DNA of 64,000 nucleotides from Bryobacteraceae bacterium. Lineage in GTDB: Bacteria > Acidobacteriota > Terriglobia > Bryobacterales > Bryobacteraceae. How positions within the stretch are numbered: the stretch's first letter is position 1; every line of letters begins with the position of its first letter. A program made the translations under genes and the position numbers. Of this stretch, positions 2,239 to 13,700 are shown piece by piece. Location: the NCBI GenBank assembly GCA_025056865.1, contig JANWVO010000025.1, positions 1-64,000 on the forward strand, in the 5' to 3' direction. A model generated the notes under the pieces. It was not told the DNA's origin. It did not search any database and saw only the letters and a list, made by a program, of their open reading frames with translations.

Positions 2239-2286
2239 AAAAAACGCTCCCTGCCGCGCCGCCTACCACCGCAGCGGCAGGGAACG
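2239..2286 (-). terminator. Intrinsic terminator of the hopanoid-molybdenum hydroxylase operon
   Basis: Bases 2245-2257 and 2274-2286 form a 13-bp stem with a single G-U pair on the minus-strand RNA. The loop of 16 nt contains the TAG stop of the molybdenum hydroxylase gene. On the minus strand the stem is followed directly by six T (2244-2239). This is a textbook Rho-independent terminator and fixes the 3' end of the long minus-strand operon. Confidence 0.85.
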
Positions 2287-4209
2287 GGGCCGCGCTCCCG
2301 TGGCATCGAAGATGGCATTGGCCATGGCGGGGGCGACGGCGACGATGGGCGTCTCGCCCGCGCCGGCGCTCGGCAGGTCTTTGCGGTCGAGCAGGATCAC
2401 CTCGAGCCGGTCGGGCAGGTCGCGGAAGCGCGGCACCCGGTATTGTGAGAAGCGCGCGTTCAGCACGCGGCCGTTGTCGAACAGGATCTCCTCGCGAAGC
2501 GCCGCGCCGAGGCCCATCAGGATGCAGCCTTCCACCTGCGAGCGCGTGTTCCACGGATTCAGGATCGCGCCGCACTCGAACGCTTCGACGATTTCCACCA
2601 GGCGCACGGCCTTCGCCTTCGGATCCACTTCCACCTCGACGCAGGCGGCGACCACGGAGTTCTTCTCCGTTCCGCAGGCGAGGCCGATGCCGCGGTGGGC
2701 CGCGCGCTTCTGCCTGCGCCGCTCGCGCCAGCCGAACTTCTCGCAGGCGGCCAGCAGCACGGCGCGGATGCGGTCGTTTTCCAGATGCGCGAGGCGGAAG
2801 TCGAGCGGGTCGGCGCCGGCGGCTGCGGCCAGCTCGTCCATGAAGGCCTCGCGGGCGAAGTGGTTGGCCGTGGCGGCCAGCGTGCGGTAGCTGCCCTGAC
2901 GGAGGGGCGGATCGGCCGGGACGTACTTTTCGCGCCGGTCCGGGATGGCGTAAGGAGTCTGGAGGCCCGCCGCGCCGGAGTTGTAATTGGTGAACTGCCA
3001 GGCGCGGATGCGCCCCCCTTCCAGCACCGCTTCGGCATCGATGAGGGCGGCGGGGCGGAAGTAAGCCCAGCGGAACTCCTCTTCGCGTGTCCAGCGGACT
3101 TTCACGGGCCGGCCGGCTTCCTTTGCCAGACGCGCTGCTTCGAGTGCCGCCTCGCCGGTGTGCTTGCCGCCGAAGCCGCCGCCGAAATCGGGCACGATGA
3201 CGCGGACCTCTTCGGCGCGCAGGCCGAAGGCGCGGGCGAGCTCGGCGCGCACGCTGAACGGGTTGCTGGTGCCGGTCCAGACGGTGAGGCGGCCGTCCTT
3301 CCATTCGGCCACGGCCGCGCGCGGCTCCATGGGCGCGTGCTGGATGTAGGCGGTGCGGTATTCGGCCGAGTGGGTCCTGCCCCCGAGCGGCGGCACCTTT
3401 TCCTTCGCCGTGGCCCGCAGGTGTTCAAACAGATTCGTGTGGGAATGTTTCTGGCCGCCGGACCAGCGCGCGGTGGCGGCCATTGCCTCCAGCGCGCGGC
3501 GCGCCTCATAGGACGTCCGCGCCGCGCATCCGGCGAAATCGCCGTCGCGCACGGCCGCTGCGGCACCCGCCTTTTTCCCCGCTTCCACGTCCACGGACTC
3601 AAGCCGCGCGCCGTAGGCGGGCGGGCGCAGGACGCACCCGTAGAGCATGCCCTCGAGCGCGATGTCGGAGGGGAAGCGGTGCGCGCCGGTGACGATCTCC
3701 CGCGCATCGGTGCGCCAGCGGCCCTTGCCGAGGATCGTCCATTCGCCGGGCTCGCGCAGCCGCGGATTTTCGATCAGGCGTTTCTCGCGCGACAGCCATC
3801 CGCGCGCGGCAGCGGCGGCGCGGCGCACGGCGGGCACCGTGCCGGGCGTGGTGCGGCTGCCGGCGGTGATACCGTCGTCCGGCGTGCGGCTGGTGTCGCA
3901 CAGCACGACGCGGACGCGCTCCAGCGGCACGCCCAGCTCTTCGGCGGCGGCCATCGCCAGCTCCGTGCGCGGCCCCTGGCCCTCCTCCACCTTGCCGCTG
4001 AAGACGGTGAAGATGCCGTCGTCGCCCAGATGGATGCGCGCCTCGACACGCTCTCCCGACGGCTGGTCCTGCGCATCTGCCACCCACGCGGTGACCAGCC
4101 AGCCCGCCGCCAGCGTGCCGATGGCCTGCCGCCGCGTGATTTCGAAGCGGTAGAAGGGCGGCTCGAACAGCTCGAAGCGGTCCGGCTCGAAGGCCTCAAT
4201 CGGCGGCAT
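2263..4209 (-). CDS. Xanthine dehydrogenase family molybdopterin-binding subunit, twin-arginine leader
   Basis: Large subunit of a molybdenum hydroxylase, closest in style to isoquinoline 1-oxidoreductase beta subunits. It shows ELAMAAAEELGVP, GSRTTPGTVPAVRRAAA, GGGFGGKHTGEAALEAARLA, RQGSYRTLAATANHFARE and a C-terminal GAGETPI, in which E619 matches the catalytic Glu of the family. A Tat-like segment sits near the N-terminus (TRRQAIGTLAAGW, about 25-37), so the enzyme is probably exported folded with its cofactor. At 648 residues it is somewhat short for the family (commonly 700-760). It overlaps the 2Fe-2S subunit gene by 14 nt. Substrate cannot be read from sequence. Its position at the end of the hopanoid operon raises a lipid-tailoring role, which is inference. 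Confidence 0.88.
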   Translation of the reverse strand: MPPIEAFEPDRFELFEPPFYRFEITRRQAIGTLAAGWLVTAWVADAQDQPSGERVEARIHLGDDGIFTVFSGKVEEGQGPRTELAMAAAEELGVPLERVRVVLCDTSRTPDDGITAGSRTTPGTVPAVRRAAAAARGWLSREKRLIENPRLREPGEWTILGKGRWRTDAREIVTGAHRFPSDIALEGMLYGCVLRPPAYGARLESVDVEAGKKAGAAAAVRDGDFAGCAARTSYEARRALEAMAATARWSGGQKHSHTNLFEHLRATAKEKVPPLGGRTHSAEYRTAYIQHAPMEPRAAVAEWKDGRLTVWTGTSNPFSVRAELARAFGLRAEEVRVIVPDFGGGFGGKHTGEAALEAARLAKEAGRPVKVRWTREEEFRWAYFRPAALIDAEAVLEGGRIRAWQFTNYNSGAAGLQTPYAIPDRREKYVPADPPLRQGSYRTLAATANHFAREAFMDELAAAAGADPLDFRLAHLENDRIRAVLLAACEKFGWRERRRQKRAAHRGIGLACGTEKNSVVAACVEVEVDPKAKAVRLVEIVEAFECGAILNPWNTRSQVEGCILMGLGAALREEILFDNGRVLNARFSQYRVPRFRDLPDRLEVILLDRKDLPSAGAGETPIVAVAPAMANAIFDATGARPRSLPLRW

Positions 4210-4702
4210 GGAGCACCTCCCCGGAGGCGGCGCTGCCCGAGCGCCGCAGCCTTGCGGCGAACTCGACGGCGGCGACGATGCGCGGATAGCCGCAGCAGCG
4301 GCACAGGCTGCCCTGGAGCGCCTCGAGAATCTGTGCGCGCGTGGGCGACGGCGTGCGCTCGAGCAGGGCGACGGTGCGAAGCACCATGCCCGGCGTGCAG
4401 TAGCCGCACTGCATGGCGCCCTCTTCGGCGAAGGCGCGCTGCACAGGATGCAGCTCGCCGCCGCGGGCCAGCCCCTCGATGGTGGTGATGCGCCTGCCGG
4501 CGGCGGCCCGCACCGGCGTGATGCAGGACAGCGCCGGCGCGCCGTCCATCAGCACGGTGCAGGCGCGGCACTGCCCTTCGCCGCAGCCGAACTTCGTGCC
4601 GGTCAGATTCAGATCCTCGCGCAGCACTTCAAGCAGCGGGCGGTCGGGGAACGTGTCGACCTCCCGCGGCTCGCCATTCACAGTGAAGCGGAAGACAGCC
4701 AT
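4196..4702 (-). CDS. 2Fe-2S subunit of molybdenum hydroxylase
   Basis: Small iron-sulfur subunit of the same enzyme (168 aa). The plant-type ferredoxin cluster is bound by C40, C45, C48 and C60 (CGEGQCRACTV ... LSC). The second helical cluster is bound by C99, C102, C134 and C136 (CGYCTPGMV ... CRCCGYPRIV). I take the ATG at 4702 because GAGG lies 8 nt before it. A GTG nine bases further upstream is possible but overlaps that site. It follows hpnD by 43 nt on the same strand. Electrons would pass from the molybdenum centre through these clusters to an unidentified acceptor. No FAD subunit is encoded here, as is usual for the isoquinoline-type group. Confidence 0.9.
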   Translation of the reverse strand: MAVFRFTVNGEPREVDTFPDRPLLEVLREDLNLTGTKFGCGEGQCRACTVLMDGAPALSCITPVRAAAGRRITTIEGLARGGELHPVQRAFAEEGAMQCGYCTPGMVLRTVALLERTPSPTRAQILEALQGSLCRCCGYPRIVAAVEFAARLRRSGSAASGEVLHAAD

Positions 4703-4745
4703 GGAAGCCACCTCGCAACCATGCTATGCGAATCGGCGTGCGCCG

Positions 4746-5591
4746 TCAGCCCCGGCGGGCGAACATGGCCCGCAGCGCGATGGCCGTCTTTTCAAGCGGC
4801 GACAGCCGCACGCGCGAGGCGAGCACCTCGTAGCCGCGCTGTTCGATGCGGCCGAGGAGCCGGCGGTAGATCTCGATCAGCGCCCACAGGGCGTGGCGGC
4901 TGTCCGGCTCCACCATCGTGATCAGCGGCTCCGCCTCTTCGTAGTAGGCGCGGGCGCGCGCCGCCTCGAAGGCGAGCAGGCGCTGCAATTCGGCGCACAC
5001 GGCCGGCGCGGACAGCATCTCTGCGGTGACGCCGAAGCGCTCCATGTCTTCCCGCGGCAGGTAGATGCGTCCGCTTCTGGCGTCTTCGCCAACGTCGCGC
5101 AGGATGTTGGTGAGCTGGAAGGCGATGCCGCAGCGTTCGGCCAGCCGCGGGGCGCGCGGATCGGCGAAGCCGAACACATGGATGGTGGCGATGCCGACGA
5201 CGCTGGCCACCAGGTAGCAGTACCGGTAAAGCGCATCAAACGTGTCAAAGAGGCGCGGCTCGAAGTCGGAAGCGACACCTTCGATCATCCCGTAGAGGCA
5301 CTCGGGCGGGATGCGGTACCGATGGACCGTGTCCATGAAGGCGGGCCAGAGGGCATGGGGCGGGGCGCCGCCGGCGAGGGCTTCGTCCAGTTGCGTGCGC
5401 CAGGCGCGCAGGGCTTCGAGGCTGGCGCGCGCGCCGTCGCTCAGGTCGTCGCACTCGCGCATGAAGGCGTAGAGGGCGCACATGGCGCGGCGCTTGTGCC
5501 GCGGCAGGGCCAGGAAGGAGTAGTAGAAATTGCGCGCGCGGCGGCGCGCGACCCGCTCGCAGAAGCGGTAGGACTGCTCGACCGCCGTCAT
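4746..5591 (-). CDS. hpnD: Presqualene diphosphate synthase
   Basis: Squalene/phytoene synthase family, 281 aa. In the HpnCDE route this enzyme condenses two farnesyl diphosphates to presqualene diphosphate. The first Asp-rich motif is ECDDLSDG (D48, D49, D52), and the second is NILRDVGED (D166, D170), followed by RSGRIYLP. It overlaps hpnC by 4 nt (ATGA), the usual hpnC-hpnD order. HpnE, the flavin-dependent last step to squalene, is not in the window. Phytoene synthase is the main alternative, but the adjacent HpnC homologue makes HpnD much more likely. Confidence 0.9.
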   Translation of the reverse strand: MTAVEQSYRFCERVARRRARNFYYSFLALPRHKRRAMCALYAFMRECDDLSDGARASLEALRAWRTQLDEALAGGAPPHALWPAFMDTVHRYRIPPECLYGMIEGVASDFEPRLFDTFDALYRYCYLVASVVGIATIHVFGFADPRAPRLAERCGIAFQLTNILRDVGEDARSGRIYLPREDMERFGVTAEMLSAPAVCAELQRLLAFEAARARAYYEEAEPLITMVEPDSRHALWALIEIYRRLLGRIEQRGYEVLASRVRLSPLEKTAIALRAMFARRG

Positions 5592-6508
5592 GCCGCCCGC
5601 CGCAGCGCCAGCCGCGCCAGGCTTCCGAGCAGCAGCAGCGCCCTTTCCGTTTTCGAAATGGCCGGGCGCGCGCGCAACACGTCGTAGTCCTGCGCGCGGA
5701 TCTTGTCGAGCACTTTCATGCCGCCGCGGCTGAACAGCTCGATGTCGAGCGCCAGCCTGCGGTCCACCATGCGCACCAGCGGCAGCCCCTGTTCAAACAG
5801 GGCCTGCGCGTAGCCGACGGCCTCGCGCATCGCCTCGCGGAAGCCGGCGGTGCAGCGGCGGGCGAAAAGGTCCTCCTCGCGGCAGCCGTGCCGGGCGAGC
5901 AGGTCCTGCGGCAGGTAGATGCGGTTCTTGGCGAGGTCGACAGAGACGTCCTGCCAGAAGTTGGCAAGCTGGAGCGCCGTGCAGGTGGCGTCCGAGAGCC
6001 GGAAGCGCTCTTCGTCGCGGTATCCGCACAGCATCAGCACGAGCCGGCCGACCGGGTTGGCAGAGCGGCGGCAGTAGCCGAGCACCTCGTTCCAGTCGCG
6101 GTACCGGGTGACGGTCTGATCCTGCACGAATGCGTCGATCAGGTCTTCGAAGGGCTGGCCGGGCAGCTCATGACGCGCAACGGTTTCCGCCAGCGCGAGG
6201 AAGACGGGATGCGAGGCGGGGCGGCCGGCGTAGAGCGAGCGCAGCTCGCCGCGCCACCATTCCAGAAGGCGGAGGCTCTCCTGCGGGTCGCCGGTCTCAT
6301 CGCCGAGATCGTCCGCCCAGCGGCAGAAGGCGTAGACGTTGTAGAAGTCCTGGTGCAGCCGCTTCGGCAGCAGGATCGAGACGACGTGGAAGTTCTCGTA
6401 GTGGTGCGTGGCCAGCCAGCGCGTGTAGCGGAGGGATTCGTCGAGGCTCCACTGCCTTCCCGCCGCTTGCGGCGACCGCAGAAACGGGATCGGTTCGAGC
6501 AGCTCCAC
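5588..6508 (-). CDS. hpnC: Hydroxysqualene synthase
   Basis: Squalene/phytoene synthase family, 306 aa. In the three-enzyme pathway it converts presqualene diphosphate to hydroxysqualene. It has the first Asp-rich motif RWADDLGDETGD (D66, D67, D70, E71) and the second NFWQDVSVDLAKNRIYLP near residue 195. The N-terminal HYENFHVVSILLPKRLH is typical of HpnC. Coupled to hpnD by an ATGA overlap and preceded by a zinc dehydrogenase 18 nt upstream, so it is part of the same operon. Confidence 0.9.
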   Translation of the reverse strand: MELLEPIPFLRSPQAAGRQWSLDESLRYTRWLATHHYENFHVVSILLPKRLHQDFYNVYAFCRWADDLGDETGDPQESLRLLEWWRGELRSLYAGRPASHPVFLALAETVARHELPGQPFEDLIDAFVQDQTVTRYRDWNEVLGYCRRSANPVGRLVLMLCGYRDEERFRLSDATCTALQLANFWQDVSVDLAKNRIYLPQDLLARHGCREEDLFARRCTAGFREAMREAVGYAQALFEQGLPLVRMVDRRLALDIELFSRGGMKVLDKIRAQDYDVLRARPAISKTERALLLLGSLARLALRRAA

Positions 6509-6526
6509 GCCCGCCCTTCCGCGCGA

Positions 6527-7564
6527 TCAGGGGATGATGGCCGTTTTCATGTGGCCGTTGTGGCTCATGAGGTGGCGCAGCACGTCGAGCAGATTGTGGA
6601 GCGGCTCTTCCCGGTTGACGAAATCGCGCGCGGCGATGTCGCCGCGGCTGACCACGTCGAGCGCCTTGCGGATGTAGGCAGGCGTGTGGTGGAAGCTGGC
6701 GATGCAGCGGATTTCGGAGTAATGCAGGAGCTGCGTCTCCAGCGTGATCTTCGTGTCCGACGGGCAGCCGCCGAAGAACTGCGCGGTGCCGCCGCGGCGC
6801 AGCAGCCGCGTGGCCAGCTCCCAGGTTTCCGGGTTGCCGACGGCTTCGATGACGGCGTCGGCGCCGTAGCCGCCGGTGAGGCGCCGCACTTCGCTCACCA
6901 CGGTGTCGGGGTCGGAGTTGATCAGCGCGTCATGGGCGCCCATGCGAAGCGCCCGTTCAAGCTGGGACTCGCGGCGTCCAAGCGCAATGACGCGGGCCCC
7001 ATAGACCTTGGCGAGGCGCACGAACATCAGCCCGATGGGGCCCTGGCCGATGACGACGACATGATCGCCCGGCCGGACGTTGGTCTCCTCGAGGCCTTTC
7101 AGCACGCAGGCCAGCGGCTCGATCAGCGCCGCGTCCTGGTAGCTGAGATGCGGCGGGATCTCGTACATGTTGCGCTGCACGATCCGCGCCGGAATGCGGA
7201 TGTATTCGGCATAGGCCCCGTTGTTGAACAGGAGGTCCTCGCAGTGGTTCTCGAGCCCCTTGCGGCAATAAAAGCAGTTGAGGCAGGGGGCGGAATTGGC
7301 GGCGACCACGCGCTGTCCCACGCGGAAGTTCTCCACATGGGAGCCCACTTTCACGATGTCGCCTGCAAGCTCATGGCCGAACAGCGCAGGGGGCACGATC
7401 ATGCGGGCGTGATAGCCCCTGCGGAACACCTTGACGTCCGTGCCGCAGGTCAGGGCGGCGCGCACGCGCACGAGGACGTCGCCTTTCTCGATGGCAGGAA
7501 CGGCTACCTCCTCCACGCGCACCTGCTCGCGTCCGTAGAGTACGGCAGCCTTCATTTTTTTCAT
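6527..7564 (-). CDS. Zinc-dependent medium-chain dehydrogenase (second of a pair)
   Basis: Medium-chain dehydrogenase/reductase, 345 aa. Catalytic-zinc residues are C40 and H64-E65 (TCGTD, FGHELAG). The structural zinc loop carries C94, C97, C100 and C108. The nucleotide-binding turn is VVVIGQGPIGLM near residue 170. Such enzymes oxidise or reduce alcohol/aldehyde or polyol substrates with NAD(P). It sits 4 nt after its paralogue and 18 nt before hpnC, inside the hopanoid operon. Sorbitol or threonine dehydrogenase-like activity cannot be excluded. Position suggests work on a hopanoid side-chain sugar or aldehyde, which is inference. Confidence 0.85.
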   Translation of the reverse strand: MKKMKAAVLYGREQVRVEEVAVPAIEKGDVLVRVRAALTCGTDVKVFRRGYHARMIVPPALFGHELAGDIVKVGSHVENFRVGQRVVAANSAPCLNCFYCRKGLENHCEDLLFNNGAYAEYIRIPARIVQRNMYEIPPHLSYQDAALIEPLACVLKGLEETNVRPGDHVVVIGQGPIGLMFVRLAKVYGARVIALGRRESQLERALRMGAHDALINSDPDTVVSEVRRLTGGYGADAVIEAVGNPETWELATRLLRRGGTAQFFGGCPSDTKITLETQLLHYSEIRCIASFHHTPAYIRKALDVVSRGDIAARDFVNREEPLHNLLDVLRHLMSHNGHMKTAIIP

Positions 7565-7568
7565 TGCT

Positions 7569-8657
7569 TCAACTCAACCTCTGTGGCTGAACGATGATCT
7601 TCAGGGACTCGCCGTCCGGATGCATCGCTTTCCGGATGCCATCCCGGATGGCGGTGAGGGGCATGCGATGCGAGATCAGATCCTGCACGGGCAGTTCCCC
7701 GCTCATCACCAGGCGCGCCGACTCGGACTGGAGATCGATGGAGGCGCTGTAGACACCGAACAGAGTTCTCTCGTACTTGCAGATGTCTGCGCCTGACAAC
7801 TCGATTCGTTCCGTTTCGGAGGTCTGGGCGAAAAACAATATTTTACTACCCGGGCGGGAGGCGGCGATAGCCTGCTCGACAATTCCCGGAGCCGAAGCGG
7901 CCACGAACACCTGATCGACGCCGCGGCCGGCGGTGAGCGCGCGGCAGCGGGCCGCCACGTCGGTTTCGAGCGGATTCCAGGCCTCGGCAGCGCCGAAGCG
8001 CCGCCCCAGCTCCAGCCGCCGCGGGATGGTGTCGGTGGCCAGAATGGTGCAACCGGTCCGCTTCAGCAGCATGGTGAACATCAGCCCGATCGGCCCCTGA
8101 CCCTGCACGAGCACGACGTCGTCGGCGCGGGGAGCGGCTTCCACGACAGCCTTCAGCACGGTATTGACAGGCTCCACCAGGCTGGCCACTTCGAAGGGCA
8201 CGCCGTCGGGGATCTTCTCGACGCCGTCCCGGACGATCCAGTCCATCACGCGCACGTACTGGCCGAAACCGCCGCCAGCGGGTTCGAAACCGGCGGTGAT
8301 GCCCACCTTCTTGTACGTCTCGCACTGCGCGTAAAGTTTCCTCGCGCAGTAGAAACAATTCCGGCAGGGAATGTGGTGGAAGGCGACCACCCGGTCGCCC
8401 GGCTGGAACTTCGTCACGCCTTCGCCTACGCGTACCACCACGCCCGCCGTCTCATGCCCGTAAATGCGCGGCGGCGGCAGCAGGTCGTAGGCGACCTTCT
8501 TCAGATCGGTGTGGCAGATGCCGCAGGCTTCCACGCGGACAAGGATCTCGCCGGGGCCGATGTCCGGCACCGGCACGGGCTGCACTTCGATGCGCCCGTT
8601 GCCGGTGTAGACGGCAGCCATCATTTCCCGGCCGGGTTCAAAAACGGCAGTGGACAA
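7569..8657 (-). CDS. Zinc-dependent medium-chain dehydrogenase (first of a pair)
   Basis: Medium-chain dehydrogenase, 362 aa, with catalytic-zinc residues C45 (EACGICHTD) and H68-E69 (YGHET), structural-zinc C98, C101, C104, C112, and VVLVQGQGPIGLM for the cofactor. The TTG at 8657 is chosen because GGGAG lies a few bases upstream, which makes a 20-nt overlap with hpnG. A start at ATG 8624 would give the more usual N-terminus (MMAAVYTGNG). The C-terminal half differs clearly from the next dehydrogenase, so the two are not a recent duplication. Tight coupling to hpnG is the best clue to its role. Confidence 0.85.
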   Translation of the reverse strand: MSTAVFEPGREMMAAVYTGNGRIEVQPVPVPDIGPGEILVRVEACGICHTDLKKVAYDLLPPPRIYGHETAGVVVRVGEGVTKFQPGDRVVAFHHIPCRNCFYCARKLYAQCETYKKVGITAGFEPAGGGFGQYVRVMDWIVRDGVEKIPDGVPFEVASLVEPVNTVLKAVVEAAPRADDVVLVQGQGPIGLMFTMLLKRTGCTILATDTIPRRLELGRRFGAAEAWNPLETDVAARCRALTAGRGVDQVFVAASAPGIVEQAIAASRPGSKILFFAQTSETERIELSGADICKYERTLFGVYSASIDLQSESARLVMSGELPVQDLISHRMPLTAIRDGIRKAMHPDGESLKIIVQPQRLS

Positions 8658-9357
8658 GAAACTCTCCCAATTGGTCTGCGGCCCGGCGGCAGTCGCCGTG
8701 GAACCGGAGCAGGGGTTTCAATCTACTAGGATGCACCAGAACGGCAAGGGTGATGCGCCATCTGGAGAATCTTCCATCGGAGGCGCGGAAACGGTTGAAA
8801 TCGAGCGGCAACGGCTCGTCCGCGCCATCGCTGACGGCGCGGATGCAGTAGAAAGGAACGCGGCGCGCCGCCGCCTCGGCCGCCACCGCGGCGGCCTCCA
8901 TATCGACGGCCACGGCGCCGCGCGCTGCGATCTGCGCCTTCTCTTCGGGTGTGGCAGCCACGCGGTCCTGCGACCACAGCGTGCCTGCGAGGAACCGGCG
9001 CCCGCAGGCCGGCGTCAGCGCAGGATAGCGGTCGCCGCTGCCTGCATCGACAACTTCGGAGGCGGCGAGGATGTCTCCCGGGGAGGCTCCGGCCAGGACA
9101 GCGCCGCAGAAGCCCGTGCTCACGAGCGTGGCGCGGCCGCCGCAACGGTCCAGCGCCGTCTGCGCGGCATGACGCGCCAGCTTCGGACCTGGCCCGTGCG
9201 CGGCGAGAATCCAGTGCCTCGCGCCGATCGCCGCTTCCCGCGCGAAAAGCACCGGCCAGCGGAGATTCCGCACGCCGCGGGCGCGGCGCAGCAGCCCGCG
9301 GAATTCCAGCGGCTCGGCCGCCACGGCAATCACCGGTTCCGCCTCAGCAGTAGCCAT
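8638..9357 (-). CDS. hpnG: Hopanoid-associated phosphorylase/nucleosidase
   Basis: Nucleoside phosphorylase-fold protein of 239 aa. HpnG removes adenine from adenosylhopane to give the ribosyl form on the way to bacteriohopanetetrol. Supporting motifs are VSTGFCGAVL, the purine-phosphorylase-like VAVDMEAAAVAAEA and FYCIRAVSDGADEPLP. The ATG at 9357 (MATAEAEP) overlaps the hpnA stop by 14 nt, and a longer upstream frame only runs antisense-like through hpnA. Placement after hpnA and inside the hopanoid operon supports the name over a generic 5'-methylthioadenosine nucleosidase. The radical-SAM partner HpnH is not in this window. Confidence 0.82.
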   Translation of the reverse strand: MATAEAEPVIAVAAEPLEFRGLLRRARGVRNLRWPVLFAREAAIGARHWILAAHGPGPKLARHAAQTALDRCGGRATLVSTGFCGAVLAGASPGDILAASEVVDAGSGDRYPALTPACGRRFLAGTLWSQDRVAATPEEKAQIAARGAVAVDMEAAAVAAEAAARRVPFYCIRAVSDGADEPLPLDFNRFRASDGRFSRWRITLAVLVHPSRLKPLLRFHGDCRRAADQLGEFLVHCRF

Positions 9358-10318
9358 GTTCGCGAAACCATTCCACGGCGTGGCGCAGCGCCGTTTCCGC
9401 AGGCGCGGGACGGTAGCCGAGCTCCCGTTCCGCCTTCGCATGCGACACCCACATCTTCTTGCGCGCCATCCGCACTGCATCGAGAGGCGCGCGGGGGGGC
9501 CTTCCGGTCAGCTCCGCCCAGGCGGTATCCACCAGGGCGGCGCCGAAGGCGACAGCCCAGGGCAGCCGGAGGCGCGGGGCGGGCAGGCCGGTGATCCGTG
9601 ACAAAAGATCAAAAATCTGTTTCAGCGTCAGGTTCTCGCTTCCGAGGATGTAGCGCTCGCCGGGCCGGCCGCGCTCGCAGGCCAGCCAGTGGCCTTCGGC
9701 CGCGTCGGCCGCATCGACGATGTTGAGGCCCGTGTCGACATAGGCCGGCATGCGGCCGCGCAGGAAGTCGAGGATCGTCTGCCCGGTGGGCGTCGGCTTC
9801 ACATCATGGGCGCCCACCGGCGCCGTCGGGTTGACGATCACCACCGGCAGCCCCTGCCGCGCGGCGGCGAGCGCCTCCTGCTCGGCAAGCCATTTCGAGC
9901 GCTTGTAATGGCCGGTCATGTCGCGGATGGAAACCGGCGTGGTCTCGTCGCCGAGGCCGCCCTCGACAAAGCCGATGCAGCCCACGGTGCTTGTATGGAC
10001 GACGCGCTCGGCGCCGGCGGCGCGTGCGGCTTCGAGGACGTTGCGGGTGCCGCCGACGTTGGACTCGTACATCTCGCGCGGGCGCGGCGTCCAAAGCCGG
10101 TAGTCGGCGGCCACGTGGAAGACCAGCCCGCAGCCCGCGGCGGCGCGCCGCACGGCGTCCGGATCGCGCAGGTCGCCCTGCACGATGTCGGCATCCAGGT
10201 CCTTCACCGCCTCCGGACGGCGCGCCAGCGCGCGCACGGGAATGCCGCGGCGCAGCAGGGCCTGCGCCACATGCCAGCCGAGAAAGCCCGAGGCGCCCGT
10301 CACCAGCGCGGGCTTCAT
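9344..10318 (-). CDS. hpnA: Hopanoid-associated NAD-dependent sugar epimerase
   Basis: Extended short-chain dehydrogenase of 324 aa. N-terminal glycine motif GASGFLGWH, then LVFHVAADYRLW, HTSTVGCIG and the catalytic YKRSKW (Tyr-x-x-x-Lys). The DYRLW and NPTAPVG segments are characteristic of the hopanoid-associated HpnA group. Its precise reaction is not established. A strong ribosome binding site (AAGGAGGAAG) precedes the ATG. It lies 40 nt after the cyclase gene and overlaps hpnG. Confidence 0.85.
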   Translation of the reverse strand: MKPALVTGASGFLGWHVAQALLRRGIPVRALARRPEAVKDLDADIVQGDLRDPDAVRRAAAGCGLVFHVAADYRLWTPRPREMYESNVGGTRNVLEAARAAGAERVVHTSTVGCIGFVEGGLGDETTPVSIRDMTGHYKRSKWLAEQEALAAARQGLPVVIVNPTAPVGAHDVKPTPTGQTILDFLRGRMPAYVDTGLNIVDAADAAEGHWLACERGRPGERYILGSENLTLKQIFDLLSRITGLPAPRLRLPWAVAFGAALVDTAWAELTGRPPRAPLDAVRMARKKMWVSHAKAERELGYRPAPAETALRHAVEWFREHGYC

Positions 10319-10358
10319 CGCCTTCCTCCTTCTGCCGATTCGTGCCGCAGTCGCATTT

Positions 10359-12131
10359 TCACAGGGAAATGTTCAGCCGTTCGCGCAGCGCGAGCAGCGG
10401 CCACGCCGCTGCGCCCAGCGGATCCGCCAGATAGGGAGCATACGCCACGCCGGCCAGCGTCGGCGCGCAGGCCGCCCAGCCACCGCCCGGCTGCTGGTTC
10501 GCCGCGAGCCATGCGAATCCACGGCGCACGCTTTCGCTGTCCGTGTCGCCGCCCGCGAGCAGCCCGAGCAGCGCCCACGCGGTCTGCTCCGGCGTGCTGG
10601 CGGCTTCGCGGAACTCGCCGCTTCCGTGCGACTCCGGATGCTCGCCCCAGCCGCCATCCGCGTTCTGGATGGAACGGAGCCATTCGCCGGCGCGCAGCAC
10701 GGACGCTTCGCGGTCGTCAAGCCCCGCGGCGCGAAGCCCGCGCAGGGCCATTGCAGTTCCGTACAGGCGGCAGATGCCGCGCGAGCCGCGCCACCACGCT
10801 TCGGCGTGCTGGGAGTCCTCGAGAAACTGCACGGCGCGGCGCACTGCCGGCGCGTCCTGGGACTGTCCGCAGGCGATCAACGCTTCGATCACGGCGCCGG
10901 TGACGTCCGGGCTGGAAGGATCGGCCTCGGAAACGCTCCAGCCGCCGTCGCCGCGCTGCGCCTGCATCAACGCATCCGCAGCTTCGCGCGCCATGCCGTC
11001 TTCCAGGTGATTCACGCTCCGTAGGGCGAGCAGTGCGAGCGCAGTAGTTTCCGCGTCGGCATCTTCGTGCAGGCCGCCCAGCGGCCATCCGGCAGGGAGC
11101 ATCCCGTTGCCATTCGATGCGGGGCCGCGCCGGAAACGCATCTTCAGAGCGCCGGCAGCGCGGGAGGCGGCGTCGCTTCCCGCCAGGGCCAACGCAGCCA
11201 GCGCAGCGGCGCGGATGCCATAATCGCAGGGCCGCGGGCAGCCCTCCGGGCCGGACGGCCCGAGCATCGAGACCACGCGCTCGAGGCGGCCGAGGGCGTG
11301 CGAGCCACGCCATCCGGCCGACTGCACGGCCAGCGCCGCGTGGAGCGCCACCGGCAACACCGGCCAGCGCAACGCCTCCTCCACCATCGCATCGTAAGCG
11401 CGGAAGACGATCGGGTCGCGCAGCGGGCGGGGCGCCAGGCGCGCCCATTTTGCGACGAGCGTTCCGGCCACGCCCCCAGGGCGCAGATCCGCGGCAACAG
11501 ACCGGACCCATGGCTCCTGGTGTTCTGCCGGCGGCAACGCGTTGCTCCGCAGAGCGTCCGTTCCGCGCAGATAGGCGGCGATGGAAAGCGCCGCAGCACA
11601 CACATCCTGCTGGCGCTGGAGCGCGGGCCAACGGCTGTAGTCGTGGAAGTAGTAATGCTCTGGCGCAACAGCGGGCACGCGCCTGCCGTCTGCCGCGCCC
11701 GCCCATGAATACCGGAGCAGCGTGAATGGGCTGCAAGCTGCGGAGACCCCGTGTGCAGCCAGCCACTGGGCGGCGCGGCGCAATCCCGCATGCCCCGGCT
11801 CGAGCCCTGCCAGACGCAACGCGAGCCAGGCGTCAAAAGTCGCTTCGGCGTCGGAGGGCCCCCCGCGCCACAGCGCGAATCCGCCATCGCCGTTCTGCCG
11901 TTGAAGCAGCCGCGTGGCCCACGTCCCATTGAGGGAAGGCTGGAACGGATGGTCCCTTCTGTCCAGAAACCAGGCGAAGAGGCCATGAAGGGCGTCCAGA
12001 TGGGCGCCTGCCTCGAGCAGATTGGGCCAGCCACCCTCTTCGCTCTGGAGCCGGGAAAGGAAAGAGCGGCCGCGCGCTGCTGCCTCGCGCAGGGCTTGCC
12101 CGGAGCCGTCTGCTGCGGTGGCTGCGCTCAT
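10359..12131 (-). CDS. Divergent squalene-hopene cyclase homologue
   Basis: Prenyltransferase/squalene-cyclase repeat protein of 590 aa, shorter than usual (about 630-700). QW-type repeats are visible: QSEEGGWP, QNGDGGFALW, QRGDGGW, QNADGGWGE and QQPGGGWA. RLYGTAMALRGL corresponds to the cyclase YGTW segment, and TPEQTAWALLGLLAGG is conserved. The acid motif DxDDTA, however, reads D359-A-E361-T362-T-A here. The C-terminal GTGFPxxFYLxYxxY block, which supplies active-site aromatics, is replaced by GVAYAPYLAD (from residue 561). The ATG at 12131 overlaps the ispH stop (ATGA). Context says hopanoid cyclisation. The residues leave open a changed substrate, weak activity, or a non-catalytic role. 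A canonical shc may lie elsewhere. Confidence 0.8.
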   Translation of the reverse strand: MSAATAADGSGQALREAAARGRSFLSRLQSEEGGWPNLLEAGAHLDALHGLFAWFLDRRDHPFQPSLNGTWATRLLQRQNGDGGFALWRGGPSDAEATFDAWLALRLAGLEPGHAGLRRAAQWLAAHGVSAACSPFTLLRYSWAGAADGRRVPAVAPEHYYFHDYSRWPALQRQQDVCAAALSIAAYLRGTDALRSNALPPAEHQEPWVRSVAADLRPGGVAGTLVAKWARLAPRPLRDPIVFRAYDAMVEEALRWPVLPVALHAALAVQSAGWRGSHALGRLERVVSMLGPSGPEGCPRPCDYGIRAAALAALALAGSDAASRAAGALKMRFRRGPASNGNGMLPAGWPLGGLHEDADAETTALALLALRSVNHLEDGMAREAADALMQAQRGDGGWSVSEADPSSPDVTGAVIEALIACGQSQDAPAVRRAVQFLEDSQHAEAWWRGSRGICRLYGTAMALRGLRAAGLDDREASVLRAGEWLRSIQNADGGWGEHPESHGSGEFREAASTPEQTAWALLGLLAGGDTDSESVRRGFAWLAANQQPGGGWAACAPTLAGVAYAPYLADPLGAAAWPLLALRERLNISL

Positions 12132-13123
12132 GCGCTGGCGGAGGGCGGCGCCGACGCGCCAGCCAGGCGGGACAGGGGCACCTGCACTTCCGGCGGCAGG
12201 CTGAAGCGGACGTCCTCCTCGATGATGTCCACCTCCTCCACCGCCGTGAAGCCCTTCTCCCGCAGCGCGGCGATCAGCTCCTGCACGAGATGCTCGGGGG
12301 CCGAGGCGCCCGCAGTCACCGAAACGGTCTTCACGCCTTCCAGCCACTCGTCCCGCAGGTAGCGGCGGTCGTCGATCAGGTGGCTGGGCACGCCCGCGCG
12401 CTGACACACCTCCACCAGCCGCTTCGAATTCGAGCTGTTCTGGCTGCCAACCACGAGGAGCAGCTCGCACAGCGGTGCCACCGCCTTGACGGCCGTCTGG
12501 CGGTTCTGCGTGGCGTAGCAGATGTCCTGGGACTTCGGGCCGGCGATCCTCGGGAAACGGCGCTCGAGAATCTCGATGATGCCGCGCGTTTCATCGAGGC
12601 TCAGCGTGGTCTGCGTCAGATAGCAGACCTTTTCGGGATCCGGCACCTGGACGCGCTCGGCATCCTCCTCGGACTCGATGATGATCGTGCTCTGGGGCGC
12701 CTCGCCGAAGGTGCCCTCGATCTCCTCGTGGTCCTTGTGTCCGATCAGCAGAATGGTGTAGCCCTGCTGGGCAAAGCGGACCGCTTCCAGGTGGACCTTG
12801 GTGACCAGGGGGCAGGTCGCGTCGATGACGGAAAGGTTGCGCCGGCGGGCTTCCTCGCGCACGGCGGGCGAGACCCCGTGCGCGCTGAAAACGACGCGCG
12901 CTCCTTCTGGCACTTCGCTCAGCTCGTTGACAAAGATCGCTCCCATGCCGCGCAGCTCGTCAACGACGTGGCGGTTGTGCACGATCTCCTTGCGGACATA
13001 AATCGGCGCGCCGTAAACTTCGAGCGCGATCTTGACGATGTCGATCGCCCGCACGACTCCCGCACAGAAGCCCCGGGGCCGCAGCAGGAGGACCTTTTTC
13101 CCAGCAGAATGTGGCGCTTGCAT
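12128..13123 (-). CDS. ispH: 4-hydroxy-3-methylbut-2-enyl diphosphate reductase
   Basis: Last enzyme of the MEP isoprenoid pathway; it makes IPP and DMAPP with a 4Fe-4S cluster. Cluster cysteines are C20 (RGFCAGV), C104 (DATCPLV) and C202 (ICYATQNRQ). Also visible are KEIVHNRHVV, FSAHGVSP, HEEIEGTFG with the proton-relay Glu, GSQNSSNSKRL and VTAGASAPE. 331 aa is full length. It is first in the hopanoid operon, preceded by an extended -10 promoter and overlapping the cyclase gene by 4 nt, so precursor supply and hopanoid synthesis are co-transcribed. Confidence 0.95.
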   Translation of the reverse strand: MQAPHSAGKKVLLLRPRGFCAGVVRAIDIVKIALEVYGAPIYVRKEIVHNRHVVDELRGMGAIFVNELSEVPEGARVVFSAHGVSPAVREEARRRNLSVIDATCPLVTKVHLEAVRFAQQGYTILLIGHKDHEEIEGTFGEAPQSTIIIESEEDAERVQVPDPEKVCYLTQTTLSLDETRGIIEILERRFPRIAGPKSQDICYATQNRQTAVKAVAPLCELLLVVGSQNSSNSKRLVEVCQRAGVPSHLIDDRRYLRDEWLEGVKTVSVTAGASAPEHLVQELIAALREKGFTAVEEVDIIEEDVRFSLPPEVQVPLSRLAGASAPPSASA

Positions 13124-13140
13124 GTTGAAGGAGTGCTCTC

Positions 13141-13149
13141 ATTATAGCA
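13141..13149 (-). promoter_or_regulatory. Extended -10 promoter of the ispH-hopanoid operon
   Basis: On the minus strand the sequence TGCTATAAT occurs 17 nt before the ispH ATG. It is a perfect TATAAT with the upstream TG of extended -10 promoters. I see no good -35 box at 16-18 bp, which the TG extension can offset. Transcription would begin about 10 nt before the ATG, and no clear Shine-Dalgarno site is present. Confidence 0.6.
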
Positions 13150-13232
13150 GCCGGCCGCAGTCCAGCCGCATTCGTGTGCACCTTTTGCGATGACCGCCCG
13201 TACCGGCGCGCTCCAAAATCCCGCCGTCCGCT

Positions 13233-13700
13233 TCAGCGGCGGCGGCGGAAGAACTCCTCCAGCAGCGCGGCGCACTCGGCCCCAAGCACGCCCTCGTGGA
13301 CTTCCACGCGGTGATTGAGCAGCTCCGAATCCGCCAGCCGGAACTTGGATCGCACGCCGCCGAAGCGGATGTCGCGGGCGCCGAACACCAGCCGTGCGAT
13401 GCGCGCATGCACGATGGCGCCGGCGCACATCACGCAGGGCTCAAGCGTCACGTACAGAGTGGCCCCGGGGAGCCGGTAGTTGCCTGCATGGCGCGCGGCC
13501 TCGCGCAGCGCCACGATCTCGGCGTGGGCGGTCGGGTCGAGGCAGGAGACGGGACGGTTATAGCCGGCGCCGATTTCCCGGCCCTCCAGGACGACCACCG
13601 CGCCGACCGGCACTTCGTCGCCGGCTTCGCCCTGCCGGGCCAGTTCCAGCGCTCGCCGCATCCACCGCTCGTCTGCGGATCCCGTTGGCACGCCGCTCAT
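13233..13700 (-). CDS. tadA: tRNA(Arg) adenosine deaminase
   Basis: Cytidine/deoxycytidylate deaminase fold, 155 aa. It converts wobble A34 of tRNA-Arg to inosine. The zinc-site residues H59 and catalytic E61 are in TAHAEI, and C89 and C92 are in LEPCVMCAGA. ARLVFGARDIRFGG and the C-terminal LLEEFFRRRR are typical of TadA. I use the ATG at 13700 (MSGVPTG); the frame continues upstream but there runs over the divergent promoter region. It lies 109 nt upstream of ispH on the same strand and is probably a separate unit. Confidence 0.92.
   Translation of the reverse strand: MSGVPTGSADERWMRRALELARQGEAGDEVPVGAVVVLEGREIGAGYNRPVSCLDPTAHAEIVALREAARHAGNYRLPGATLYVTLEPCVMCAGAIVHARIARLVFGARDIRFGGVRSKFRLADSELLNHRVEVHEGVLGAECAALLEEFFRRRR

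Follow-up and report, generated by a model that had tools for sequence, protein, structure and literature searches.

A hopanoid operon of Bryobacterales in which the squalene-hopene cyclase slot holds a protein without the DxDD motif

The window analyzed here is a stretch of 64,000 nucleotides (nt) of contig JANWVO010000025.1, positions 1 to 64,000 of the forward strand, from the 4.18-Mb assembly GCA_025056865.1 of a Bryobacteraceae bacterium. Ten minus-strand genes occupy positions 13123-2263: ispH, a gene for a squalene-hopene cyclase (SHC)-like protein, hpnA, hpnG, two genes for medium-chain dehydrogenases/reductases (MDR1 and MDR2), hpnC, hpnD, and genes for the 2Fe-2S (FeS) and the molybdenum (Mo)-binding subunits of a Mo hydroxylase. 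The cyclase-like protein lacks the DxDD motif of SHC, and comparable losses, with the same segment of the protein retained, are found in other lineages. The features are listed below; the biochemical roles of all the block proteins are predictions from sequence. Comparison genomes, contigs and loci carry handles beginning with G, C and L.

13141..13149, minus strand: extended -10 promoter box TGCTATAAT, kept in 8/8 aligned leaders, including three of other genera
12128..13123, minus strand: ispH, 4-hydroxy-3-methylbut-2-enyl diphosphate (HMBPP) reductase; NCBIfam NF002189, 469.7 bits, cut-off 444
10359..12131, minus strand: SHC-like protein in the SHC slot, DxDD changed to DAETT; ATGA overlap with ispH; fold match to 2sqc, Z 40.1
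10506..10751, minus strand: segment within the cyclase-like gene (residues 461-542 from the ATG) kept in every degenerate copy, found by column comparison
9344..10318, minus strand: hpnA; TIGR03466, 464.5 bits, cut-off 367.65
8638..9357, minus strand: hpnG (phosphorylase superfamily), likely start 9357; TIGR03468, 127.1 bits, cut-off 187.1; best match, place conserved
7569..8657, minus strand: MDR1, predicted Zn alcohol dehydrogenase, NAD-type Asp209; from domains, residue alignment and locus comparison
6527..7564, minus strand: MDR2, predicted Zn alcohol dehydrogenase, NADP-type Gly-Arg-Arg 196-198; from the same three sources
5588..6508, minus strand: hpnC; TIGR03464, 363.9 bits, cut-off 250.45
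4746..5591, minus strand: hpnD; TIGR03465, 266.6 bits, best match, slightly below the cut-off of 278.6
4196..4711, minus strand: 2Fe-2S subunit of the Mo hydroxylase (PF01799, PF00111); neighbor, not an operon member in relatives
2263..4209, minus strand: Mo-binding subunit (PF20256, PF02738), RR signal peptide read by eye; neighbor
2239..2286, minus strand: predicted intrinsic-terminator-like hairpin with T6; minimum free energy -33.5 kcal/mol, 0/200 shuffles as good

An earlier note on this DNA had described ten genes on one strand joined by overlaps or short gaps, and this description holds, with successive junctions of -4, 40, -20, -20, 4, 18, -4, 34 and -14 nt (hpnG counted from 9363). 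The longest open reading frame of hpnG, from 9480, is overlong; the likely start is 9357, because the alignment of relatives begins at about 9363 and an ATG is located at 9357. The extended -10 box that the note had placed at 13149-13141 is present, and in the leaders of this genome and seven relatives of our choice (five species of the genus in all, plus G026, G104 and G121) the box upstream of ispH reads TATAAT in seven cases and TATACT in one. The end hairpin is likewise found as described, a 13-pair stem followed by T6; neither G039 nor G049, which are the two congeners with the Mo gene, shows it. The scan of 16 kb for terminator-like sites gave 8 against 8.2 expected, a count uninformative on internal ends. 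The gene names of the note stand in part: ispH (87-93% identical to that of four congeners), hpnA, and hpnC score above the curated cut-offs, whereas hpnD and hpnG are best matches that stay below them, and the name of HpnG is backed by gene order. Its "cyclase homologue" does occupy the cyclase slot and has an SHC-like predicted fold, but lacks DxDD.

Loci around cyclase matches were collected from four congeners and nine other genomes. Two of these 13 are too short and 11 span the block, and the order ispH-cyclase-(hpnH)-hpnA-hpnG-MDR1-MDR2-hpnC-hpnD is found in all 11. The window block shows the same order, with the cyclase-like gene in the SHC slot. A larger set, the named loci, consists of the best 80 loci of the order Bryobacterales from a contig scan with an MDR1 alignment. 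In these, hpnG precedes MDR1 in 80/80 (too short 0, absent with room 0). For the remaining genes, the numbers of loci in which the gene is present, the DNA is too short, or the gene is absent despite sufficient room are 65, 14 and 1 for ispH; 69, 9 and 2 for the cyclase; 76, 3 and 1 for hpnA; 75, 5 and 0 for MDR2 (the five end just past MDR1); 70, 9 and 1 for hpnC; and 66, 11 and 3 for hpnD. Exceptions to the core order are L115, L120, L132, L164 and L169, together with several loci outside Bryobacterales. Among 20 such outside loci, chosen by us from the better-scoring matches rather than comprising all of them, hpnG-MDR1 occurs in 18, the other two being truncated, and 17 of the 20 have MDR2, 9 hpnC, and 10 hpnE. 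Judged by gene content and order, the core from ispH to hpnD is the usual hopanoid operon of Bryobacterales. The grouping of ispH, hopanoid genes and two dehydrogenases proposed in the note is kept in this order, and the class Terriglobia shares its first half; the dehydrogenases, taken there for additions to the standard set, are standard members of the operon.

The gene hpnE occurs in 0/80 named loci, so that its absence from the block is normal. The position between the cyclase and hpnA is occupied by hpnH in 48/80 named loci, and hpnH is present neither in the window block nor in the blocks of the congeners. The full SHC, HpnH, HpnE, and one HpnI are encoded on other contigs of this genome, with the best HpnH match on C53. 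Because the genus has no operon copy of hpnH, HpnH, like SHC, seems to have moved out of the operon. There are two kinds of HpnH, and the one of this genome (G000:C53:40484-41434) shares only 38-49% identity with the operon kind.

In the cyclase-like protein, D[AV]ETT (DAETT or DVETT) replaces DxDD in all five species of the genus. Further stretches typical of SHC are gone as well, namely DGGWAAFD, FADHNAML, and GTGFPxxFYL, and the score against NCBIfam TIGR01507 is 199.7 bits, short of the cut-off of 431.1. A double alpha-barrel fold is predicted with a mean predicted local distance difference test (pLDDT) of 76.6, the C-terminal part being the best, from an alignment that included true SHCs. 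The model has the same whole fold as the SHC of Alicyclobacillus (2sqc; 3.6 A over 547 residues, 26% identity), from which it differs by the absence of these four motifs. A cyclase sequence is available for 69 of the named loci: 62 have DxDD, six lack it (L092, which is G040, and L099-L103), and one is a contig-end fragment. The degenerate copies of other lineages show SCGET, HTEET or gaps at the motif, and large deletions occur in L099 and L101-L103; for the short L101 copy the model is poor (pLDDT 46 from 4 sequences; 54-91 by blocks over residues 191-300). A long open frame is nevertheless found in 10/10 degenerate copies. The ratio of nonsynonymous to synonymous divergence (dN/dS) in the genus, from a simple counting method and partly saturated, is 0.275 for the cyclase against 0.262 for hpnG and 0.056-0.159 for ispH, hpnA, MDR1, MDR2, hpnC, and hpnD; the FeS value was set aside because it includes the G030 remnant. 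The operon cyclase of the genus would, on its motifs, be the original operon SHC converted into a cyclase-dead protein. A minor observation concerns hpnG, whose dN/dS is similar to that of the dead cyclase and whose score is below the cut-off, though its place is fixed.

A full SHC with DIDD is found elsewhere in 10/10 genomes that have a degenerate operon copy, i.e., the five of the genus and the five behind L099-L103; in this genome it lies on contig C51. Such second SHCs form one clade outside the operon SHCs (support 0.999). Among ten comparison genomes with an intact operon SHC, six also carry a second-clade copy and four do not, and the second-clade copy of G121 has an in-frame stop. The tree of ispH, hpnA, and MDR1, built for the 73/90 taxa with all three genes and thus excluding L103, indicates three or more separate losses of DxDD, which fall on the genus, on L100-L102, and on L099, the last of these within a clade of intact copies (0.948). 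The tree of 89/90 taxa, which provides the sole placement of L103, placed together loci that lack genes and was replaced.

The degenerate copies retain one segment of the protein, of which the narrower string ALRGLRAAG..SESVRRG corresponds to 10518-10748. Among 335 highly conserved SHC columns, 51 lie inside the segment and 284 elsewhere; the 70 "intact" SHC rows compared for the segment include some genomes under two ids. The conserved columns kept inside and elsewhere are 46/51 and 97/284 in the genus, 44/51 and 58/284 in L099, 44/51 and 118/284 in L100, 36/51 and 47/284 in L101-102, and 40/51 and 63/284 in L103 (Fisher p 1.6e-9 to 1.6e-19 in the five lineage groups, with columns that are not independent). 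In the genus, nonsynonymous differences per site (pN) are 0.134 in the segment, 0.267 upstream and 0.218 downstream; the synonymous values (pS) are 0.51, 0.59 and 0.52, not clearly depressed in the segment. Synonymous codons of the segment vary between lineages, and hence it appears to be kept at the protein level, and a conserved DNA or RNA element under it is not favored. The second SHC is considered an unlikely source of the segment by copying, as the C51 copy of this genome has a different sequence in that part.

In both MDR1 and MDR2, ADH_N and ADH_zinc_N domains are found, and the presumed ligand positions for the catalytic and the structural Zn do not vary in 8/8 rows each. By the rules that we assume for cofactor binding, Asp209 would make MDR1 NAD-type and Gly-Arg-Arg 196-198 would make MDR2 NADP-type. 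With MDR1-type matches defined as those above 360 bits (the next class begins at 217), 98 of the 151 genomes from the class have MDR1, and in 96 of these HpnH scores above the cut-off; 36 genomes have neither, 17 HpnH only, and two MDR1 only, both of the latter being incomplete (81-85%). Of the 53 genomes without MDR1, 36 are thus also without HpnH. Most likely, the hopanoid side chain is the substrate of MDR1 and/or MDR2 once HpnG has acted, the obvious step being the reduction of ribosylhopane to bacteriohopanetetrol. The enzyme of this step was stated as not established in 2025 in the part of PMC12583986 available to us. The dehydrogenases linked to hpnG, predicted to be of the NAD type (MDR1) and the NADP type (MDR2), are named candidates for the bacteriohopanetetrol-forming ribosylhopane reductase.

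The last two genes have the features of the xanthine oxidase type, namely Fer2/Fer2_2 and MoCoBD domains and a GAGE stretch aligned to GVGE of PaoC, whose Glu we presume to be catalytic. The 2Fe-2S and Mo subunits are shared with the PaoABC/xanthine dehydrogenase family, and PaoC is the best solved relative of the Mo subunit; unlike in that family, no gene for a flavin adenine dinucleotide subunit is among the ten, and no curated cut-off is reached. In the four congeners, a convergent gene directly follows hpnD: ThuA in G049, G040, and G030, and NHL in G039. Beyond it, G049 and G039 have an intact pair, G030 only a remnant of the FeS gene of about 200 bp (L053:1987-2186) with no close Mo subunit in the genome, and G040 no pair. 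Outside the genus, hpn genes were found near 0/16 orthologous pairs within the 8.5-20 kb read (loci of our choice among the better-scoring matches, not all), and a pair lies downstream in 0/52 named loci read for at least 6 kb past MDR1. The earlier note had named consistent unlinking in relatives as one finding that would refute its unit; this is the situation outside the genus and largely within it, where two pairs are separated from hpnD and two species lack an intact pair. The Mo hydroxylase, which the note had counted as a member of the unit, is on this comparison a bystander, a chance neighbor of the hopanoid operon. A self-contained two-gene module would have come beside hpnD probably through the loss of a gene in between in this lineage. 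No gene family stands out as a conserved partner of the pair in 18 loci; the remaining widespread families resemble shadows of the two genes, either antisense or in another frame. In G182, a relative of ThuA (61-63% identity to that of the congeners) lies near the orthologous pair, away from hpn genes (L076:13200-14126), and ThuA may therefore be the older neighbor of the pair. In L236, an FeS/Mo pair with 42% and 27% identity lies at 10936-13500 on the strand of hpnE.

Taken jointly, with a probability of about 0.7, the block would be an old hopanoid operon of Bryobacterales and Terriglobia, with hpnE (as is usual in the order) and hpnH elsewhere, in which the original SHC became cyclase-dead, the old paralogue on C51 would make hopene, and the Mo pair is a neighbor. 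The dead copy, with its open frame and ATGA coupling to ispH, appears to be under purifying selection with the C-terminal segment kept, and would be a pseudoenzyme with a retained non-cyclase role, most likely docking to neighboring hopanoid enzymes or membrane or lipid binding. Several observations weigh against this. The constraint on the cyclase is relaxed, since its dN/dS is well above that of the other six core genes, and some retention of the segment is expected, because few parts of normal SHC are more conserved. MDR1 would be dispensable for some side-chain synthesis, since a close MDR1 is missing from 17/113 genomes that have HpnH. In loci outside the order, the operon is often incomplete in its second half (absent with room: hpnC 8/20, MDR2 3/20). 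One of the 80 named loci, L169, has a Mo/FeS pair near the operon, upstream and on the other strand, and one of the 20 outside loci, L236 (G225, another family of the class), has a distant pair after hpnE. The genomes are related, so that the locus counts are not independent, and the 80 loci were selected by MDR1 similarity.

A gene in plain decay, open because the decay is recent or because polarity on hpnA is spared, would account for the raised dN/dS and the large deletions, and the second SHC makes the operon copy redundant. This explanation is doubtful: the frame is open in 10/10 copies with dN/dS well below 1, and five lineage groups have retained the same segment but lost other parts that are conserved equally well. 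Rather improbable is a re-tooled class II terpene cyclase, in which the Glu of D[AV]ETT would serve another, perhaps shorter, substrate. Such a role would fit D-x-E-T-T being kept in 5/5 species, a genus-specific conserved stretch near residues 236-275 (pN 0.08), and structural similarity to drimenyl diphosphate synthase (Z about 34), and DxDTT works in AsDMS (PMC9128629). The likeness to the DxDTT of drimenol and drimenyl diphosphate synthases is superficial, however: the window protein derives from SHC, has Glu for the catalytic Asp, and, unlike AsDMS, shows no HAD domain in Pfam. The D333N variant of AsDMS is inactive, according to the part of PMC9128629 available; together with SsDMS D303E, solved with bound substrate according to its structure-entry titles, this suggests that the Asp matters. 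Moreover, the degenerate copies of other lineages lack D-x-E-T-T and yet keep the same other segment. Very unlikely is the reading that follows the earlier note, in which one unit makes a tailored hopanoid, for which no evidence was found, and the Mo hydroxylase would oxidize it: in this genome, the pair begins 34 nt past hpnD in the same orientation and is followed by a hairpin, and an intact pair lies downstream of hpnD in 3/5 species of the genus, this one included, but the convergent genes and the separate loci outside the genus speak against it.

An extension of the pseudoenzyme reading, which is offered tentatively, holds that the operon SHC always had a second job through its C-terminal segment of about 80 residues, either as a docking site for partner enzymes or in the handling of membrane hopene. 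The paralogue would then have freed catalysis to decay repeatedly, and the pseudoenzyme would organize a hopanoid metabolon. If true, this repeated natural uncoupling of catalysis from a second function of SHC would point to hopanoid enzymes acting as an assembly, and the kept segment shows where to look for its function. In practice, calling shc by homology or gene order alone would give the wrong cyclase in these genomes.

The layout of the block is ordinary and largely published, the Zn dehydrogenase beside hpnC having been reported in 2017. Sinninghe Damste et al. (PMC5462960) described acidobacterial hopanoid clusters A, B, and C in the passages available. Cluster C (hpnA-hpnG-ug1) and cluster A (ug2, a Zn alcohol dehydrogenase of about 350 aa, followed by hpnC-hpnD-hpnE) resemble parts of the block; cluster B comprises ispA, shc, and hpnH, and the text also groups hpnH, shc, and ispH. 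By position, MDR1 would be ug1 and MDR2 ug2. All three clusters are concatenated in Terracidiphilus, and Ca. Solibacter usitatus has a second shc. Unlike in the block, only cluster C is recognized in cultured subdivision 3, A and B being called reduced. In the same passages, an shc without the active site is not seen and "xanthine" has 0 occurrences, and no title on a dead SHC was among the papers listed by a literature search on SHC, pseudoenzyme, DXDD, paralog, and hopanoid. What specialists would not expect is the repeated loss of catalysis by the SHC that belongs to the operon, together with the retention of one segment. As a last observation, this genome has two HpnI-like genes (G000:C32:40080 and C1:7504) with 318 and 303 bits against a cut-off of 310, a hint of glycosylated hopanoids.

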